DNA of 33,450 bases. Source: a virus. The stretch spans positions 1-33,450 of IMG/VR virus record IMGVR_UViG_3300037104_000145; one strand, written 5' to 3'. The notes beneath the pieces are model-generated. The model searched no databases. It had not been told where the DNA came from and worked only from the letters and a program-made list of their open reading frames with translations. Position 1 is the first letter of the stretch; each line of letters opens with the position of its first letter. Positions 8,985 through 30,744 of the stretch are shown here, in pieces. The position numbers and the translations under genes were made by a program.

Positions 8985-9013
8985 CTAAATAGTGGGTACT
9001 GAGAGTGCCCACT
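8985..9013 (+). promoter_or_regulatory. Late promoter overlapping a start-blocking hairpin
   Basis: CTAAATA lies at 8985-8991. Bases 8991-8999 (AGTGGGTAC) pair with 9005-9013 (GTGCCCACT) around a five-base loop, and the hairpin ends directly at ATG 9014. RNA reading through from upstream would form the whole hairpin. RNA starting at the late promoter (about 8997) would lack most of the 5' arm and leave the start free. Confidence 0.55.
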
Positions 9014-9271
9014 ATGAATACTGACGAACAGACCCAAGTCCGCGACCTCCTGAACGAGGCTCCGACCAGCTATACGGTGACACCACTCCACAACCATACG
9101 GTGATGGTGAACTACTATGCGATCACGCCTCGCAAGTCTCGGGCGAGATTCAATCGCACAGTGAGTCTTACCCAGTTGCGGGGAGCGCAGAGTGAGACTG
9201 CCGTTTTGTATTACCTGAAGTCGCTGCATCCAAGCTGTGACATCATGATTATGAACATCGAATTCCGGTAG
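9014..9271 (+). CDS. Unknown small protein
   Basis: The likely start is ATG 9014; a GTG at 9005 is in frame but lies in the 3' arm of a hairpin. The product has 85 residues: an N-terminal helix, a beta-rich middle (SYTVTPLHNHTVMVNYYAIT), a basic stretch (PRKSRARFNRTV) and a hydrophobic end (CDIMIMNIEFR). No family is recognised. The CTAAATA motif and hairpin upstream suggest late expression with read-through translation blocked. Confidence 0.6.
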   Translation: MNTDEQTQVRDLLNEAPTSYTVTPLHNHTVMVNYYAITPRKSRARFNRTVSLTQLRGAQSETAVLYYLKSLHPSCDIMIMNIEFR

Positions 9272-15805: not shown

Positions 15806-15897
15806 GCTCCCGTAGTGTAATGGCAGCACACGGGCCTTATAAGCCCGCAGCACTAGATTGGTGCGTAGTCTAGGTTCAAGTCCTAGCGGGAGTACCA
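15806..15897 (+). tRNA. tRNA with anticodon UAU (Ile, AUA) and long variable arm
   Basis: All arms can be drawn. The acceptor stem is GCTCCCG with CGGGAGT (one G-U pair), then discriminator A and encoded CCA. The D arm is GTGT/GCAC. The anticodon stem CGGGC/GCCCG encloses the loop CTTATAA, giving anticodon TAT at 15838-15840. The T arm is CTAGG-TTCAAGT-CCTAG. The variable region is 22 bases and folds as GCACTA-GAT-TGGTGC, as in class II tRNAs (Leu, Ser, Tyr). An isoleucine tRNA would normally have 4-5 bases here, so the charging identity is open. Confidence 0.85.
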
Positions 15898-18017: not shown

Positions 18018-18515
18018 CTAATCAGGATATCGTGATAATATTGTGTGGGCCCAAGTTTTTAGGTCTTTGATTCGTTGACCACTCGGGTGTGATGATGCCC
18101 AAAGTTCGAGATTGTCAATTTGATTGTTTGCTCGATTGCCGTTTTTGTGGTGTATTTGTTCGTTCGGAAACAATGCTCGTCCCAGGTGTTTTACCATGAC
18201 ATATTCGTGTTCTAGAACATATCCGGATTTACGAACTTCACCGGGGTAAGTTTTGTCGGTTATATAAACGAGCACATATCCTTGGTTTGTGTATTTTTTA
18301 ATGTTCTTCCATGCGTGGTGTTGTGGCCCTTTACGTTTGCGTAGGCAACCACAACTTTTTGTGAACGGTAGATTGTTGGCGCCAATTAGTTTTATGTTGC
18401 CGCATTTACAGCGGCACTCCCATATTATACTGCCGCCGGCCGTGCGTTTGTCGGTAGGTTGGATTGCTGTTAATAGGCCAAATTGTTGTTTGGTGATGTC
18501 TTTGAGATGCGCCAT
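18018..18515 (-). CDS. HNH homing endonuclease with N-terminal zinc ribbon
   Basis: The 165 residues have two parts. The first (about 1-60) reads ITKQQFGLLTAIQP, then WECRCKCG and KSCGCLRKR, a zinc-ribbon-like DNA-binding unit. The second is the HNH nuclease: YVLEHEYVMVKHLGRAL, IHHKNGNRANNQIDNLELW, then HPSGQR. The genes at 19468 and 28265 have the same plan and are paralogues. It lies opposite to the replication genes, between the methyltransferase remnant and gp62, and has its own late promoter with a hairpin over its ribosome binding site. Confidence 0.85.
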   Translation of the reverse strand: MAHLKDITKQQFGLLTAIQPTDKRTAGGSIIWECRCKCGNIKLIGANNLPFTKSCGCLRKRKGPQHHAWKNIKKYTNQGYVLVYITDKTYPGEVRKSGYVLEHEYVMVKHLGRALFPNEQIHHKNGNRANNQIDNLELWASSHPSGQRIKDLKTWAHTILSRYPD

Positions 18516-18989: not shown

Positions 18990-19443
18990 GACCAATTCAA
19001 ACTCTGTCGTGCTGCTTCCCCATGTGGCAGCGGTGATACATGACTGTGTAGAGGTAACTCTTGCTAGTCCCGATGACTTTCTGAAGGTAAAAGAGACCTT
19101 GACCCGTATTGGGGTCGCCTCGCACAAGGACCATGAGCGTCCTAGATTGTATCAAAGCTGCCACATTTTACATAAGCGTGGTCAGTATTACCTTGTCCAC
19201 TTCAAAGAGCTATTCCTGCTAGACGGGAAAGCTGCTCAGACACACTTTGATGATACGGACCGGGCCCGTCGTAATACTATTGCGAACATGCTTGCCGAAT
19301 GGGGGCTGGTGAAACTGGTAGATCCCGCAAAGAGCGCAGCTCCTGTGGTACCGATTTCGCAGATTACAATAATACCGTATAGAGATAAAATTTCATGGGA
19401 ATTGGTTGCTAAATATGAGATTGGTAAGCGTCGTGTTCTCTAA
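18976..19443 (+). CDS. regA: RegA-like translational repressor
   Basis: RegA binds start regions of early phage mRNAs and blocks translation. The protein has 155 residues against 122 in T4. The family core is very clear: VEVTLASPDDFLKVKETLTR, then YQSCHILHKRGQYYLVHFKE, LLDGKAA, RRNTIANMLAEWGLVKLV, and a C-terminal SWELVAKYEIG. The first 23 residues are extra, so a start nearer to residue 24 cannot be excluded, though ATG 18976 gives the usual overlap with gp62. The T4 order 62-regA-43 is kept, but here an HNH gene, a MazG-like gene, a lysozyme and a small barrel protein lie between regA and 43. Confidence 0.92.
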   Translation: MTIHETNSNSVVLLPHVAAVIHDCVEVTLASPDDFLKVKETLTRIGVASHKDHERPRLYQSCHILHKRGQYYLVHFKELFLLDGKAAQTHFDDTDRARRNTIANMLAEWGLVKLVDPAKSAAPVVPISQITIIPYRDKISWELVAKYEIGKRRVL

Positions 19444-19466
19444 ATAAGAAATGGGGAGGTACGATG
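19429..19466 (+). promoter_or_regulatory. Late promoter in the loop of a ribosome-site hairpin
   Basis: CTAAATA lies at 19440-19446, across the regA stop. Bases 19429-19440 can pair with 19456-19466 (11 pairs, three of them G-U, one bulged T), covering the GGGGAGG site of the HNH gene at 19468. RNA starting at the late promoter (about 19452) lacks the 5' arm. Confidence 0.6.
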
Positions 19467-19467
19467 A

Positions 19468-20022
19468 ATGCCGAGTAAAATTGATTTGATGGGAAAGCGA
19501 TTTGGGCGGCTGTTGGTTGTTGAGGAAATTACTCCCGACAAACGAGGAGAATTTCGTTGGCGGTGTGTTTGTGATTGTGGTGAAGAGAAAACAACGACCG
19601 GTCATTATTTGCGAACAGGAAAAACCACAAGTTGTGGCTGTTATCGTAAAGAAGTTGCAACAGAGCGTATTAAAATTTGGTCCGCAAATAGTGTAGGCAA
19701 GTATCGAAGAGAAAAATCACATAATTGGAAGGGCGGCCGGAAATTTACCGATAAGGGTTATGTTGATTTATTGGTTGACGGTCATTATTGCTTGGAGCAT
19801 CGTTATGTTATGGAGCAGCATTTGGGACGAAAATTGTTGCCTGAAGAAAATGTGCACCATATAAACGGAGTTCGTGCCGACAATCGTTTTGAGAATTTAG
19901 AGTTGTGGAGTAGGTCGCAGCCGCCGGGACAGCGAGTAGTTGATAAAGTGAAATGGGCCCATGAGATACTAGACCAATATAAGGAGTTTGATAATGACCG
20001 TAGTGAAAGTGCCAGATATTGA
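19468..20022 (+). CDS. HNH homing endonuclease with N-terminal zinc ribbon
   Basis: The 184 residues start IDLMGKRFGRLLVVEE, then WRCVCDCGEEK and TSCGCYRKE (zinc-ribbon-like unit), a KSHNWKGGRK linker and the HNH core LEHRYVMEQHLGRKL, VHHINGVRADNRFENLELW, QPPGQR. It is close in sequence to the gene at 28265, including at the DNA level around GAGTTGTGGAGTA, so the two are recent paralogues. The ATG at 19468 is chosen over ATG 19464, which stops after four codons. A late promoter with hairpin lies upstream. Its end runs 29 bases into the MazG-like gene. Confidence 0.87.
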   Translation: MPSKIDLMGKRFGRLLVVEEITPDKRGEFRWRCVCDCGEEKTTTGHYLRTGKTTSCGCYRKEVATERIKIWSANSVGKYRREKSHNWKGGRKFTDKGYVDLLVDGHYCLEHRYVMEQHLGRKLLPEENVHHINGVRADNRFENLELWSRSQPPGQRVVDKVKWAHEILDQYKEFDNDRSESARY

Positions 20023-20434
20023 AGGACCGGAATGTCAGTTGTGCTGGAAGCAGGCTCCGTCGATGGAGCGGTGTGATCGGGCTGCTGGTCACGCGGGCCC
20101 GCATACGTGGGAACTGTCGTTCAGCCGGTATCAGAATGGCGTAGTGAAGACCTGGGATTGTGGGAAGACGGAGAAGGACCGCCTGCTCAACGCGGTGCTT
20201 GGGATTGCGGGCGAATCGGGAGAGTATGCGGACCTAATCAAGAAGCAGGAATTTCATGGAATTCCGGCGGACTCTCGCGCTGTGTTGAAAGAGCTAGGCG
20301 ATATTCTCTATTACGTGACAGCCGCGGCCATGGAGCACGGATACACGTTGGAGCAAGTTGCGATCACCAATAACCAAAAGCTCGCCGCTCGTTATCCCGA
20401 GGGATTCAAGCTCGGCGGCGGCATCCGCGAGTAG
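19994..20434 (+). CDS. MazG-like nucleotide pyrophosphohydrolase
   Basis: ATG 19994 has AAGGAG seven bases upstream, inside the end of the HNH gene. The 146 residues have an N-terminal Cys/His part (CQLCWKQ, RCDRAAGHAGPHTWE) likely to bind zinc, then the MazG fold: LLNAVLGIAGESGEYADLIKK with the E-x-x-E metal site, and LKELGDILYYVTAAAMEHG with the second E-x-x-D. Such enzymes convert (d)NTPs to (d)NMPs and pyrophosphate; in phages they can also lower alarmone levels. It is the third dNTP-pool enzyme in the window. Downstream comes the late-type lysozyme. Confidence 0.85.
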   Translation: MTVVKVPDIEGPECQLCWKQAPSMERCDRAAGHAGPHTWELSFSRYQNGVVKTWDCGKTEKDRLLNAVLGIAGESGEYADLIKKQEFHGIPADSRAVLKELGDILYYVTAAAMEHGYTLEQVAITNNQKLAARYPEGFKLGGGIRE

Positions 20435-20446
20435 TTTGCCCTAACG

Positions 20447-20479
20447 ACTCTACCTCTAAATAGTATTTGGAGGTAGAGT
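20447..20479 (+). promoter_or_regulatory. Late promoter in a hairpin hiding the lysozyme start
   Basis: ACTCTACCTC at 20447-20456 pairs perfectly with GAGGTAGAGT at 20470-20479. The GGAGG ribosome site (20469-20473) is in the 3' arm, and CTAAATA (20456-20462) fills the start of the loop. Read-through RNA would be closed. RNA from the late promoter (about 20468) has no 5' arm and is open. T4 gene e is controlled in this way. Confidence 0.8.
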
Positions 20480-20480
20480 T

Positions 20481-20951
20481 ATGCCACTTAGTCAATCAGG
20501 CGTAAAATTCATCGCACAATTTGAAGGGCTCCGGCTGTCATCTTACCAAGACGTAAGAGGCATCTGGACAATTGGATACGGAACAACGTATATCAATGGC
20601 AAACCTGTGACTCAGGGCATGACATGCACTCAGGAGCAGGCAGAGCAATGGCTCGCTGCCGATACGCAGGTCGCGGAAACTGGTGTTCGCCGATATCTGT
20701 CTGGCTGTGGTTTGACGCAGAATCAGCTTGACGCGCTTATCAGTTTTGCGTATAATGTAGGAGTCGGTGCATTTCAATCATCGACGTTGGCGAAGATGAT
20801 TCGTGCCGGCCAGCCGGTATTGGAAGATTACTTCACGCGGTGGAGTAAGGCAAAGGACCTAAAGACGGGACAGTTGGTAGTCGTTCCTGGGTTGCTACGG
20901 CGGCGCCAGGGTGAGTATAACGTGTATATGTCGGGAGTATATGATGCCTAA
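20481..20951 (+). CDS. GH24 lysozyme (endolysin), T4 gene e type
   Basis: The enzyme cleaves the glycan of peptidoglycan for lysis. The 156 residues carry the catalytic triad of T4 lysozyme with the same spacing: E15 (AQFEGLRLS), D24 (SYQDVRG) and T30 (WTIGYG), against E11, D20, T26 in T4. The later QLDALISFAYNVGVGAF and the C-terminal LLRRRQGEYNVY fit GH24 endolysins. No signal peptide is seen, so a holin is needed. Late expression is supported by CTAAATA and the hairpin directly upstream. Its place within the replication region, between MazG-like and polymerase genes, is unusual. Confidence 0.93.
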   Translation: MPLSQSGVKFIAQFEGLRLSSYQDVRGIWTIGYGTTYINGKPVTQGMTCTQEQAEQWLAADTQVAETGVRRYLSGCGLTQNQLDALISFAYNVGVGAFQSSTLAKMIRAGQPVLEDYFTRWSKAKDLKTGQLVVVPGLLRRRQGEYNVYMSGVYDA

Positions 20952-21315: not shown

Positions 21316-22353
21316 GTGAAGCATACTATTCGACAGGTGAAATACCTTAAGTCTCTACGGGCGGACTTGCAATACACAAGCATTGCAACGATTGGTAATC
21401 GTGTGTTCGCCCGAGCCCGTGCCAAAGACGGCGCCCCGGTTTACGTAGAGCAGGAGTATTGTCCTACCTACTATACTCCAGATACCACAGGCGCGTATGG
21501 TGCCGTGGGCTATGACGGAACACCCCTTATTCCTAACGTTTGCGATTCAATTAACTGGGGTCGCCAGTTTCTTGAAGAGCACGAGGAAAAGGGTGTTCCT
21601 GTTTATGGCAACATTCAGCCCGAATACATGGTGCTGTCGGACGTGTATGGCGGCAAGGAAATTGAACCGGACATGGATCGTCTCTATGTGTGGTTCCTCG
21701 ATATTGAAGTAGACCGCGACCCCGTCAGGGGATTCGCCAAGATTGACGATCCATTCTGTCCAGTCACCGCAATCACGGTCATCTGGCAGCATATGGGAAA
21801 GACGGGCACTGTCGTCTATGGGACGAAGGATTACACGCCCGCGCCCGATGTCACCTATCTCCATTGCAAGAATGAGGATGAACTGCTCAGGTGCTTCCTC
21901 AATGACTTCAGCGACGGATACGATTACCCGGACGTAGTGACGGGCTGGAACGTCCAGTTCTATGATATCCCGTATCTCATCAATCGTATGAAGCTCCTGT
22001 TCGCGGAAGAGAACTGGATTCGGTTCTCGCCGTTTGAACGCATCTCTGACCGTCGCGTGACCCTCAACGGCCGCGACCAGACGGTCATGGATGTCAAGGG
22101 CGTTGCTATTCTTGACTATTACGAGCTATACCGGAAGTTCACCTACACACAACAGGAATCCTACAGACTGGACCACATCGCGCACGTAGAGTTAGGCAAG
22201 CGGAAGCTCTCATATGCGGAGTTTCGTTCTCTCGCAGGGCTCTATCGTGGTGACCTGAAAACGGAACCTAATGTGGTGTATGAGAAGGGGTCGTTGCTTC
22301 AAGCGGCGCAATTGCGGGAGAAGTTGGCGAAACGTCTAAAGGGGAACGGGTGA
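21316..22353 (+). CDS. 43: DNA polymerase family B, N-terminal exonuclease piece (T4 gp43-like)
   Basis: This 345-residue piece holds the N-terminal domain and most of the 3'-5' exonuclease of a T4-type polymerase. Exo I is WFLDIEV (D129, E131), and Exo II is VTGWNVQFYDIPYLINR (N212, D217). It continues through LDHIAHVELGKRKLSYAEF, then departs from what I recall of T4-like polymerases after LAGLYRGD (about residue 313) and ends LREKLAKRLKGNG. Exo III is in the next piece. The start is a GTG three bases after the previous stop. The last 86 bases overlap, in antisense, the end of the GIY-YIG gene. The pieces must come together to give one enzyme. Confidence 0.9.
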   Translation: MKHTIRQVKYLKSLRADLQYTSIATIGNRVFARARAKDGAPVYVEQEYCPTYYTPDTTGAYGAVGYDGTPLIPNVCDSINWGRQFLEEHEEKGVPVYGNIQPEYMVLSDVYGGKEIEPDMDRLYVWFLDIEVDRDPVRGFAKIDDPFCPVTAITVIWQHMGKTGTVVYGTKDYTPAPDVTYLHCKNEDELLRCFLNDFSDGYDYPDVVTGWNVQFYDIPYLINRMKLLFAEENWIRFSPFERISDRRVTLNGRDQTVMDVKGVAILDYYELYRKFTYTQQESYRLDHIAHVELGKRKLSYAEFRSLAGLYRGDLKTEPNVVYEKGSLLQAAQLREKLAKRLKGNG

Positions 22354-22978
22354 ATATCCATCCTGTAGTGTGTTTGCGGTCTGAGCGAATGTTGACTCCC
22401 GCATTACGAGCCGGCGGCACGGGACGCCCGAGAAAGTTGTTCACGGCATCTTTGTTAAGTTGGTGTTCATCGATGAACATGCCGATGGTTTGTGTATGAT
22501 AAACAACGTTGTTCGGGGAAACACACGTCCACACATACTTCGCGTTTTTGCTGCCGCCCGCCTGCTTTGCTGTGGTGGTGTGGTGTTTACCCAACATGCC
22601 GTGCGTGAACCCTCGTTTTGTCCAATGGTGCGCCGACATGAGTTGCCGTGTTGCGTCGGAACACACCCATCCTGTCGCACCATCACCCCCGTCGGTGAGG
22701 TTGTAGCCTTTGGTAGGGTCGTTTGTCTCGTAGAGGCGGATGTAATGTTGTTCGAGTTCTCCCCATGCCAGTGACCGGTCGTTGGTTGTTGTTAGCACTG
22801 TAACAGTAAATGCGGGCCAGCCATGTTTGCGAATAGAACGACTCAGATATCGTTGCGGACTGTGGGTGCGTGGTTGACCCGAGTGTTTGTGGGCGCAAAG
22901 ACGACGGGGAAGATTGCCGGTAACACCGACGTATCGTTTACCGGTAGTTGTATTGGTGAGTAAGTAAATGGTAAACAT
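22268..22978 (-). CDS. GIY-YIG homing endonuclease splitting the polymerase gene
   Basis: The start is ATG 22978, preceded by AAAGGA. The 236 residues begin FTIYLLTNTTTGKRYVGVTG, which is the GIY (IYL) and YIG (YVG) core, then the conserved arginine in NLPRRLCAHK and the catalytic glutamate region WGELEQHYIRLYET. The rest, with ATGWVCSDATRQLMSAHH and HGMLGKHHTT, looks like NUMOD-type DNA-binding modules. It lies opposite to the polymerase and fills the gap between pieces one and two, overlapping both. A TATAAATA on the minus strand at 23063-23070, inside piece two, is a fitting late promoter. Confidence 0.88.
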   Translation of the reverse strand: MFTIYLLTNTTTGKRYVGVTGNLPRRLCAHKHSGQPRTHSPQRYLSRSIRKHGWPAFTVTVLTTTNDRSLAWGELEQHYIRLYETNDPTKGYNLTDGGDGATGWVCSDATRQLMSAHHWTKRGFTHGMLGKHHTTTAKQAGGSKNAKYVWTCVSPNNVVYHTQTIGMFIDEHQLNKDAVNNFLGRPVPPARNAGVNIRSDRKHTTGWIFTRSPLDVSPTSPAIAPLEATTPSHTPH

Positions 22979-23711
22979 AGAATCCTTTAACGTCACGTCC
23001 GGCGATGACCTTGAATACGTTGCCGGCCACATGGACGAATATACCGACGAGCAACTACAGAGTATTTATAATATTGTAGACGTTCACGTAAAGCAAGAAT
23101 CCCACGCCCATTTTATTCGTTATAACGTTAACGACGTGCAGTTAGTTGTTGACTTGGACGCGAAGATGAAGCTCATTGAGCTGGTGTGCGCCCTTGCGTA
23201 TGGTAGTAAGGCAAACTTCGCGGACACGTTCCGCCAGGTCCGTCTGTGGGATATCATGGCGTACCACTACCTCCGTGCCGAGGGCAAGCAGATTCCACCC
23301 AGGAAAGAGGGGTCGAAGACTGAACAATATGCGGGCGCGTTTGTCAAGGACCCATTGGTCGGTCTTCATAATTGGGTCGTGTCATTTGACGTGGCCAGCA
23401 TGTATCCGCATATCATCCGCGAGTGGAACCTGTCCCCGGAGACGATTGATAGTAAAGCAACGGTCAGCAAATGGACGGTTGAAGAGTTCTTGGCAAAGAC
23501 CGTCGATACATCCTTTGCTCCGGTCGCGGATGTCGCGTTAGCGGGTAACGGACTTCAAACGCGCCGCGATACGGAAGGGTTCCTGCCGCATATGTTGAAG
23601 ACACTTTATGAAGAACGGGTGCGGTATAAAGGAATGATGAAGTCTGCCAAGAATGAACTGGAACGGATTAAGAGTGAGAGGGCCCGCCGTGCCGACACCA
23701 GAACAGCGTGA
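22968..23711 (+). CDS. 43: DNA polymerase family B, middle piece: Exo III and palm motif A
   Basis: The 247 residues hold Exo III RYNVNDVQLV (52-60), ALAYGSKANFADTFRQVRLWD and palm motif A SFDVASMYPHII (D141), then GFLPHMLKTLYEERVRYKGMMK before the fingers. The first 45 residues (FNVTSGDDLEYVAGHMDEYTDE and after) have no clear counterpart in T4 gp43 and contain, at the DNA level, the late promoter of the GIY-YIG gene. The end (RARRADTRTA) overlaps the start of the endonuclease VII-type gene by 23 bases. The polymerase active site is thus divided between this piece and the next. Confidence 0.88.
   Translation: MVNIESFNVTSGDDLEYVAGHMDEYTDEQLQSIYNIVDVHVKQESHAHFIRYNVNDVQLVVDLDAKMKLIELVCALAYGSKANFADTFRQVRLWDIMAYHYLRAEGKQIPPRKEGSKTEQYAGAFVKDPLVGLHNWVVSFDVASMYPHIIREWNLSPETIDSKATVSKWTVEEFLAKTVDTSFAPVADVALAGNGLQTRRDTEGFLPHMLKTLYEERVRYKGMMKSAKNELERIKSERARRADTRTA
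23063..23070 (-). promoter_or_regulatory. Late promoter TATAAATA for the GIY-YIG gene
   Basis: A perfect T4 late consensus reads on the minus strand, inside the coding sequence of polymerase piece two, and points at the GIY-YIG gene. The expected start near 23057 gives a leader of about 79 bases before ATG 22978. Confidence 0.6.
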
Positions 23712-24012
23712 ACGATACCGCATTCGCCATTGGAAAGTATTGCGACAGAAGTTGTATGGCATCACTCCTGAAGAGCATGGGGCGTTGCTTGCGAAACAGA
23801 ATAATGTTTGTGCGATATGTGGGTTACCTGAAACGAATAGGTGGCGAGATAAGGTACGTGAATTGTCCGTCGACCATTGTCATATTACTGGTGTTGTGCG
23901 TGGACTGCTTTGTGCTCGGTGTAATCTCGTTCTTGGTAAGTGTAATGATGACCCGACATTGTTGCGAATGATGATAGCATATTTGGAGAAGTTGGAGAAG
24001 TATCGTGGTTGA
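23689..24012 (+). CDS. Endonuclease VII-family homing endonuclease splitting the polymerase gene
   Basis: The GTG at 23689 gives 107 residues: a basic N-terminus (TPEQRERYRIRHWKVLRQKL), the helix YGITPEEHGALLAKQNNVCAICG, and the core ELSVDHCHITGVVRGLLCARCNLVLG with CxxC pairs on both sides of the DHCH-type centre. It is similar to the gene at 12438 but lacks its N-terminal CxxC unit. It fills the gap between polymerase pieces two and three, overlapping both (23 and 8 bases), and leaves no room for an intron ribozyme. So the polymerase is split, not spliced, at this point. Confidence 0.85.
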   Translation: MPTPEQRERYRIRHWKVLRQKLYGITPEEHGALLAKQNNVCAICGLPETNRWRDKVRELSVDHCHITGVVRGLLCARCNLVLGKCNDDPTLLRMMIAYLEKLEKYRG

Positions 24013-25090
24013 TTTGACTGTAATGAGTGACGCGGAGTTGGATGCTTACGAGCGGAAAATGACGCGGGACGTGTCGCGATATAACAACCAGCAGTTGGTG
24101 CGGAAGGTCAACCTCAACTCCGCATACGGCGCCCTGGGGTCTGCTTACTTCCGGTTCTACGACACAGACCTCGCGGAAGCTGTGACTAAGACGGGGCAGC
24201 TAACCATCCGTTGGGTCGCGGAGCGCGTGAACACGTATCTCAACAAACAGTTCCGCACCAAAGAGGACTACATCATTGCGTCCGACACGGATTCCATCTA
24301 TGTCCGTATGAGTGCGTGTGCGCGGGCCTACCAGAACCTTTATCCACGAGACACTAAGGAACAAGTGATTGCGATGCTGGATAAGTTCTGTGAGCAGAAG
24401 ATCCAGCCCGTCATCAACCAAGCCTTTGCGGATTTGGCGAAGTATCTGAACGTCGCAACGCCGTGCCTGAAGATGGTGCGGGAAAGCATTGCCGATAAGG
24501 GCGTGTGGACAGCGAAGAAACGTTACATCCTGAATGTCTACAATAGCGAGGGGGTGCAATACGCGGAACCCAAGCTCAAGATCATGGGCATTGAGGCGGT
24601 CAAGTCCAGCACACCACAGATTTGCCGAGACATGATCAAGCACGCCATGAAGCTGTTCATGACAGGGACGCAAGAGGACGTGTGGACGTATATCGAGGAG
24701 TGTCGCACGAAGTTCATGGGTGCGCCCTTTGAGGATATCGCATTCCCCCGTTCGGTGAACGGACTCAAGAAGTATAGCCGGATGGACAAGAGCGTTCCGA
24801 TTCACGTCAAGGGTGCACTGGCGTTCAATGACGCACTGGCATCAACTGGACTGGAGAAGGAATACGAGCCCATCCATGAGGGTGAGAAGATTCGTTTCAC
24901 CTATCTGAAAGTGCCGAACGCATTTCACACGCACGTCATGTCCGCTCCCGAGGGATGTCCAGCGGAGTGGAAGATTGAGAAGTGGATCGATTATGATACG
25001 ATGTTTGAAAAGAGTTTGGTTGAGCCTTTGGAGGCGATTCTTTCCTGTGCCGGATGGTCCACCGCCCACACCGCGTCACTCTTCGACTGA
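24005..25090 (+). CDS. 43: DNA polymerase family B, C-terminal piece: motifs B and C, thumb
   Basis: The 361 residues start at a GTG overlapping the end of the homing gene. They hold fingers motif B KVNLNSAYGALGS (K34 to G42), motif C ASDTDSIYV (D94, D96, where T4 has GDTDS), the KKRY motif at 171-174, and the thumb with KIMGIEAVKSSTPQ. The end, CAGWSTAHTASLFD, resembles the clamp-binding tail of T4 gp43. T4-like Aeromonas phages are known to have gp43 split into two proteins near this fingers region. Here a second split upstream makes three. A palindrome and promoter follow. Confidence 0.9.
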   Translation: MVDLTVMSDAELDAYERKMTRDVSRYNNQQLVRKVNLNSAYGALGSAYFRFYDTDLAEAVTKTGQLTIRWVAERVNTYLNKQFRTKEDYIIASDTDSIYVRMSACARAYQNLYPRDTKEQVIAMLDKFCEQKIQPVINQAFADLAKYLNVATPCLKMVRESIADKGVWTAKKRYILNVYNSEGVQYAEPKLKIMGIEAVKSSTPQICRDMIKHAMKLFMTGTQEDVWTYIEECRTKFMGAPFEDIAFPRSVNGLKKYSRMDKSVPIHVKGALAFNDALASTGLEKEYEPIHEGEKIRFTYLKVPNAFHTHVMSAPEGCPAEWKIEKWIDYDTMFEKSLVEPLEAILSCAGWSTAHTASLFD

Positions 25091-28227: not shown

Positions 28228-28266
28228 TATAAATACTCTGCGGACAGGTTGTTGTGGAGTATATAT
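28228..28266 (+). promoter_or_regulatory. Late promoter forming part of a start-hiding hairpin
   Basis: TATAAATA at 28228-28235 is a perfect T4 late consensus. Bases 28229-28238 can pair with 28257-28266 (nine pairs, one mismatch), covering most of the GGAG site (28256-28259) and the A and T of ATG 28265. Late RNA should start near 28241, without the 5' arm. Confidence 0.6.
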
Positions 28267-28777
28267 GCATAAAATAGATTTGACGGGGCGCACGTTTGGT
28301 CGGCTTATCGTGTTACGGGAATCTTCCTCTCGCAAAACAGACAACCGGTGTATGTGGGTTTGTCGCTGTAGTTGCGGCGTCGAAATAGACGTTCGGGGCG
28401 ACAGTTTGCGTAACGGAAATACTCAAAGTTGTGGTTGTATGCAGCGAGAGTATGCTCGGCAAAACCGAGGCGAAAACAACAAAAGTTGGAAGGGCGGCCG
28501 CCATACAACCAAGTGCGGCTACATTCGTATTCTCATGCCAGATGGACGGTACCGGTTTGAGCATCATTTGGTAATGGAGCAGCATATAGGCCGATCTCTA
28601 AGTAAGCACGAAGAGGTGCACCATAAAAATGGTATAAGAAATGATAATCGGTTTGAGAACTTAGAGTTGTGGAGTAAGTCGCATCCCTGCGGGTCACGAG
28701 TAATAGACCTTGTTACTTGGGCCAAAGACATCCTATCTCAATACGGAGACGTAAGTGAGAATCCACACACTGCATAA
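28265..28777 (+). CDS. HNH homing endonuclease with N-terminal zinc ribbon
   Basis: The 170 residues start IDLTGRTFGRLIVLRE, then WVCRCSCGVEI and QSCGCMQRE (zinc-ribbon-like), KSWKGGRH, and the HNH core FEHHLVMEQHIGRSL, VHHKNGIRNDNRFENLELW, HPCGSR. It is the third copy of the type at 18018 and 19468 and nearest to the latter. ATG 28265 follows GGAG. It is inserted right after gp41, under a perfect late promoter whose read-through RNA would hide the start. Its end overlaps the next gene by 23 bases. Confidence 0.87.
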   Translation: MHKIDLTGRTFGRLIVLRESSSRKTDNRCMWVCRCSCGVEIDVRGDSLRNGNTQSCGCMQREYARQNRGENNKSWKGGRHTTKCGYIRILMPDGRYRFEHHLVMEQHIGRSLSKHEEVHHKNGIRNDNRFENLELWSKSHPCGSRVIDLVTWAKDILSQYGDVSENPHTA

Positions 28778-30737: not shown

Positions 30738-30744
30738 CTAAATA
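30738..30744 (+). promoter_or_regulatory. Candidate late promoter (CTAAATA)
   Basis: CTAAATA lies in the short gap before ATG 30763, two bases after the stop at 30734-30736. GCCT (30736-30739) can pair with AGGC (30750-30753) next to the weak ribosome site, but four pairs make this hairpin far weaker than those at 20447 or 28229. Expected start near 30750. Confidence 0.5.

Follow-up and report, generated by a model that had tools for sequence, protein, structure and literature searches.

Hairpin-controlled genes of T4-like phages

The timing of a late gene by a hairpin combined with a late promoter has long been known from phage T4, in which a hairpin at gene e acts as an early/late switch (PMC3014915; McPheeters et al. 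1986, as reported in PMC2988022) and cuts lysozyme synthesis from early RNA about 100-fold (PMC3014915). Hairpin control extends to homing endonucleases, namely, I-TevI, I-TevII, I-TevIII, segB, and mobE of phage Aeh1, with a late promoter inside a hairpin that sequesters the ribosome binding site and with the gene embedded in an early/middle operon (PMC2988022). For the T4-like phage Aeh1, CTAAATA from -12 has been deduced to be the late promoter (PMC1524935), and the start of its gene e, unlike that of the gene described here, is listed without apparent RNA structure (PMC3014915). Here, we describe a viral lysozyme gene for which a mechanism of the T4 e type is likely; its closest relatives are without it at their lysozyme genes.

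The lysozyme gene and its replication cluster

The stretch of DNA analyzed (the window) is a linear virus record of 33,450 bases, a fragment from a metagenome through which alone this T4-like virus is known, and holds a T4-like replication cluster. The cluster contains the sliding clamp (14694), gp44 (15910), an antisense HNH gene (18018-18515), gp62, regA, an HNH gene (19468-20022), a MazG-like pyrophosphatase (19994-20434, + strand, with the ATG at 19994 chosen by eye), the lysozyme, a small orf, DNA polymerase (three ORFs), UvsX, gp41, a further HNH gene (28265), and a cytidylyltransferase-like gene. Isolated phages are distant, the nearest being cyanophages, Pelagibacter phage HTVC008M, and Caulobacter phage Cr30, with 33 to 37% identity over a polymerase fragment.

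The lysozyme gene (20481-20951, + strand) encodes 156 amino acids that match Pfam Phage_lysozyme (PF00959, E = 7.8e-39) and the endolysin family phrog_7 (E = 5.6e-55). The Pfam match and the residues E15, D24, and T30, read from the translation and spaced like the catalytic triad of T4 lysozyme, identify it as a GH24 phage lysozyme. Upstream, the start of the MazG gene overlaps the end of the HNH gene, and about 40 additional N-terminal residues with a CxxC pair (19994-20113) are missing from the MazG of three relatives (L005, L007, and L008). The polymerase (21316-25090) is split into ORFs starting at 21316, 22968, and 24005; what divides them is a gene for a GIY-YIG homing endonuclease in antisense orientation (22268-23032) and, at 23653-24012, an ORF that resembles endonuclease VII. 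In L007, the polymerase is one 854-aa ORF. A search of the window with Rfam yielded tRNA only, a gene at 15806-15894 between sliding clamp and gp44 (60 bits), with no intron match, including at the split polymerase. The window's two co-directional HNH genes look similar to the hairpin-controlled homing endonucleases named above; the gene studied here differs in being a lysozyme.

A hairpin over the lysozyme start

MazG and lysozyme are separated by a 46-nt spacer (20435-20480, + strand) that is missing from three close relatives. It contains an inverted repeat of two 16-nt arms, 20447-20462 and 20464-20479, which are 94% complementary and 1 nt apart. The 3' arm, which includes the whole Shine-Dalgarno site GGAGG (20469-20473), stops a single base short of the ATG at 20481; the 5' arm is an anti-Shine-Dalgarno strand, and its 3' end contains the late-promoter-like box CTAAATA (20456-20462). 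The minimum free energy structure of the RNA is a stem of 15 to 16 bp that includes a single U-G wobble and is capped by a loop of at most about 3 nt, and in computed folds of read-through RNA the Shine-Dalgarno site lies inside this stable helix.

At -21.8 kcal/mol (z = -4.7), the hairpin is more stable than all 200 shuffled sequences and has the lowest energy among 96 candidate starts in the window (mean, -10.0; standard deviation, 4.2). The window contains two hairpins whose stems reach 14 bp or more around a loop of 3 to 6 nt, with ten shuffled windows giving 0, 1, 0, 0, 0, 0, 0, 0, 0, and 0. The wobble, formed by T20457 (U in RNA) with G20469, is the sole break in an otherwise perfect palindrome and suits box, Shine-Dalgarno site, and RNA stem at once, since the box would suffer from a C at 20457, and an A at 20469 would make for a weaker Shine-Dalgarno site.

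An earlier note on this DNA had described a 10-bp hairpin with the late promoter in its loop. The pairing of 20447-20456 with 20470-20479 is indeed free of mismatches, and CTAAATA does begin at the end of that 10-nt arm. The 10 bp, however, are the uninterrupted Watson-Crick outer part of a stem that continues to 15 to 16 bp with a loop of at most 3 nt, and the box therefore lies in the 5' arm, in the upper stem, rather than in the loop. Similarly, the arm 20470-20479 holds the last four bases of GGAGG, the full site starting at 20469.

An Rfam scan over the hairpin gave only a subthreshold match to an irrelevant microRNA model. We also considered a mobile hairpin and rejected it: the exact 15-mer CTCTACCTCTAAATA matches 118 times in IMG/VR, approximately the chance level by a rough estimate, and none of the 118 matches repeats the hairpin with a Shine-Dalgarno site, a handful being other hairpins with a T-run.

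The candidate late promoter

CTAAATA occurs nine times in the window (1.3 expected; 0 of 100 shuffles), and in fragments of two relatives it outnumbers the reversed control motif 7 to 1 and 5 to 2. Boxes 18 to 30 nt before an ORF start are found on the + strand (CTAAATA at 20456, 19440, and 30738; TATAAATA at 28228) and on the - strand (18549; TATAAATA at 23070), with a seventh box (CTAAATA at 8985, + strand) 22 nt before the ATG at 9014. Motif and spacing at the lysozyme are those of the Aeh1 late promoters, in which CTAAATA starts at -12 (PMC1524935), so that the box is a putative late promoter with a predicted start six bases past it, at 20468 (or 20469/20470). Judged from the sequence, an RNA starting at about 20468 would lack the 5' strand of the helix, which ends at 20462. 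Of the phage late transcription machinery, the window encodes the gp45 clamp, along with a clamp loader; genes for gp55 and gp33 were not found in the window or in the relatives' sequences, all of which are fragments, and we count this against the switch.

Opening cost of the ribosome binding site

Wherever a late box precedes a start that has a Shine-Dalgarno site, we computed the relief, i.e., the free-energy cost of opening the region from the Shine-Dalgarno site to the start in read-through RNA minus that in RNA from the late start, and we calibrated it on the complete T4 genome. T4 late boxes have a median relief of 2.4 kcal/mol (n = 19), the highest values being those of gene e (13.4), I-TevII (12.9), gene e when transcribed from the distal one of its boxes (10.7), and gene 26 (9.4), and hairpin control is documented for gene e, I-TevII, and gene 26 (PMC3014915, PMC2988022). 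T4 soc, which is documented too, has a relief of only 1.3, so that low values do not demonstrate the absence of hairpin control.

The lysozyme start shows a relief of 13.2 kcal/mol, with an opening cost of 21.3 in read-through RNA versus 8.1 in late RNA, the start being, by this computation, far easier to open once the 5' arm is gone. The relief is at least 12.3 for a late start at any base from 20464 to 20471, the read-through cost stays between 20.9 and 24.0 with 50 to 400 nt of upstream RNA, and none of 1,000 shuffles of the 58 upstream bases reaches the relief of 13.2. The predicted late leader is only 12 to 13 nt, with the Shine-Dalgarno site at its extreme 5' end, which we count against the switch; weak pairing of GGUA with UGCC in this leader explains an opening cost of 8.1, above the 1.9 of T4 e.

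The locus thus resembles T4 gene e in the order of anti-Shine-Dalgarno arm, late box, Shine-Dalgarno arm, and ATG, in a single U-G pair within the stem (the T4 wobble sits in the arm corresponding to that of the wobble here), in a relief of 13.2 versus 13.4 kcal/mol, and in lysozymes that both match phrog_7. It differs in that the box is CTAAATA rather than TATAAATA, in having one late box rather than two, in a longer stem, in the place of the gene between MazG and DNA polymerase, in a leader that is not homologous, and in having relatives without the switch at the same locus.

Proposed early/late switch and alternative explanations

We consider the best explanation of this locus, and a probable one, to be that translation is switched between early and late RNA in the manner of T4 gene e, by a switch that was placed here independently. 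The cluster of regA, HNH, MazG, and lysozyme genes is co-directional, and a terminator scan of the + strand gave nothing terminator-like from MazG to lysozyme. Early or middle RNA reading through regA, HNH, and MazG into the lysozyme gene would carry both arms; the hairpin of 15 to 16 bp would bury the stretch from GGAGG to the base preceding the AUG, and lysozyme would hence hardly be made during DNA replication. Late in infection, RNA polymerase modified by the phage (with a gp55-type sigma factor and the sliding clamp) would start at CTAAATA, at about 20468, and since such RNA would begin inside the 3' arm, the hairpin could not fold and the RNA would be translated. The claim of the earlier note that late transcription removes the 5' arm is supported by this anatomy, with an anti-Shine-Dalgarno arm, a box, a predicted start at about 20468, a Shine-Dalgarno site that would be freed, and the ATG.

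Three other explanations were weighed against the switch. The palindrome could work as DNA, with a repressor or an autorepressing endonuclease like I-TevI binding the repeat over the late box and controlling transcription instead of translation. In its favor, the near-perfect 16-nt inverted repeat is centered beside the promoter, and I-TevI is a documented autorepressor of a late promoter (PMC2988022). However, a DNA site has no need of an arm that coincides with the Shine-Dalgarno site and stops one base before the ATG, the palindrome's only asymmetry, the U-G, forms a pair in RNA but not in DNA, and the window's other three hairpins differ in sequence, so that no shared operator is seen; we regard this explanation as very unlikely. 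We judge it just as unlikely that the hairpin is an element of RNA processing or stability, or an attenuator, dividing the mRNA for replication from that for lysozyme. Its location in an intercistronic spacer fits such a role, as does the T-run behind the stem of a related cyanophage leader (see below), but here the 3' arm passes straight into TATGCC with no T-run, and the terminator scan found no + strand site. Cleavage would, moreover, leave the Shine-Dalgarno arm much as a late start does and would complement the switch rather than take its place.

Very unlikely too, in our assessment, is an accidental palindrome, in which case MazG-coupled translation of read-through RNA would supply the lysozyme, as it seems to do in the relatives. 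The lack of conservation and the touching or overlapping genes of the relatives speak for it; against it stand the 0 of 1,000 shuffles, a stem that is the extreme of 96 starts, the coincidence of box, Shine-Dalgarno site, and stem, and three further cases within the same window, and coupling would be weakened by the 46 nt past the MazG stop.

Relatives and origin of the switch

The relatives L005, L007, and L008 (polymerase 87, 83, and 63% identical) share the order regA, MazG, lysozyme, orf, and polymerase, as does L006 across the part covered. Their lysozyme ATG overlaps the end of MazG (L005 and L007) or lies 3 nt past the MazG stop (L008), with no spacer, no box within 400 nt upstream of the lysozyme, and no comparable hairpin in the three. 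In more distant relatives (L013 to L021), the lysozyme likewise lies between regA and polymerase without the switch, and a search of L005 to L008 and L013 to L022 found the hairpin kept in none of them, which we count against the switch. Since lysozyme occupies the same slot without it, the slot is old, in contrast to the switch; either this lineage gained the switch or the relatives lost it, and its source is not the T4 e locus. Among known sequences, it is specific to this lineage. We also count it against the switch that the relatives live without one, so that early lysozyme may do no harm when holin is absent.

The earlier note had seen a T4 e arrangement kept despite a new neighborhood. 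Given the absence of the switch from L005, L007, and L008, and with only the Pfam family shared with T4 e, this reading does not hold; BLASTP aligns the two lysozymes at 29% identity over 70 residues, and the neighboring genes differ, so that the loci are not homologous. Replacement of the lysozyme in this lineage alone was considered and rejected: lysozyme, gp62, and orf133 diverge more than polymerase and regA in all pairs, and the similar lysozyme divergence in all pairs (50 to 59%) gives no sign of a swap confined to this lineage.

Other late boxes and hairpins in the window

We report here three further co-directional late-box genes with hairpins, all on the + strand: two HNH genes and an 85-aa ORF. 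CTAAATA at 19440-19446 lies in a hairpin (19440-19467) of the same build that closes the start of HNH 19468-20022 (relief, 8.9 kcal/mol; 15 of 1,000 shuffles as good), TATAAATA at 28228-28235 lies before HNH 28265-28777 with a hairpin over its start (28228-28264; relief, 10.3; 3 of 1,000), and CTAAATA at 8985-8991 comes with a 12-bp hairpin (8989-9000/9004-9015; whole element, 8985-9016) over the ATG at 9014 of the 85-aa ORF (relief, 12.1; 0 of 1,000). The idea that HNH families import the switch was rejected, with 80 HNH relatives showing just two late-box-like sites before ORFs (relief, 5.8 and 0.6).

Two homing endonuclease genes in antisense orientation also have late boxes but lack such hairpins, and their relief is low, with HNH 18515(-) at 2.7 and GIY-YIG 23032(-) at 3.6, compared with 8.9 to 13.2 for the four + strand boxes, a contrast that is post hoc and drawn from a small sample. 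Because read-through of a + strand operon could express only co-directional genes, this contrast is what selection for insulation would leave. Counted against the switch, the + strand box at 30738, before orf 30763, has no hairpin and a relief of 0.3. This CTAAATA, 18 nt upstream of the cytidylyltransferase-like gene, is kept with its flanks, hairpin-less, in L006.

Outside the window, a scan of IMG/VR for CCTCTAAATA followed after 2 to 20 bases by GGAGG matched at least 120 contigs; among the matches listed, 57 of 120 lie directly before an ORF start, versus 9 of 121 with a scrambled box, and 43 of those 57 carry a leader also found in marine cyanomyoviruses. This leader (CCTCTAAATA...GGGAGG, behind gp41-MazG-thioredoxin, e.g., in Synechococcus phage S-H9-1) is similar in having an anti-Shine-Dalgarno arm, CTAAATA, a Shine-Dalgarno arm, and the ATG, and different in its shorter stem, a terminator-like T-run after the stem, and its occurrence always in one slot with different genes behind it. 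In S-H9-1 (L272, MW117966; 6001-6041) and about 40 listed IMG/VR loci, it reads ACCTCC-CTCTAAATA-GTTAGAC-GGGAGGT-T6-ATG, a hairpin with late box and Shine-Dalgarno site. The slot, UvsX-gp41-MazG-thioredoxin-[leader]-variable gene-hypothetical-cytidylyltransferase, combines a late leader that stays the same with a gene that can be exchanged; the leader fronts at least five mutually BLAST-unrelated gene families (340 to 560 aa), with no Pfam match in the members tested.

Implications

Our tentative generalization, which we hold to be possible but somewhat less than even in likelihood, is that the late-promoter hairpin is a general, repeatedly reinvented insulator in this phage group, gained by co-directional late-type genes in an early replication operon and not by genes on the opposite strand. 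It would cover the lysozyme, the homing endonucleases, and the small gene, and would add the cyanophage leader as one more instance that arose independently and became fixed at a single slot. On the reading we prefer for the lysozyme, a distant group of T4-like phages, whose sisters lack the T4 lysozyme time-switch, would have built it anew at an unrelated locus. Such switches would then look like quickly gained solutions, not inherited T4 features, and the contrast between co-directional and antisense genes in one window suggests a simple rule, open to testing, on the conditions under which they arise.
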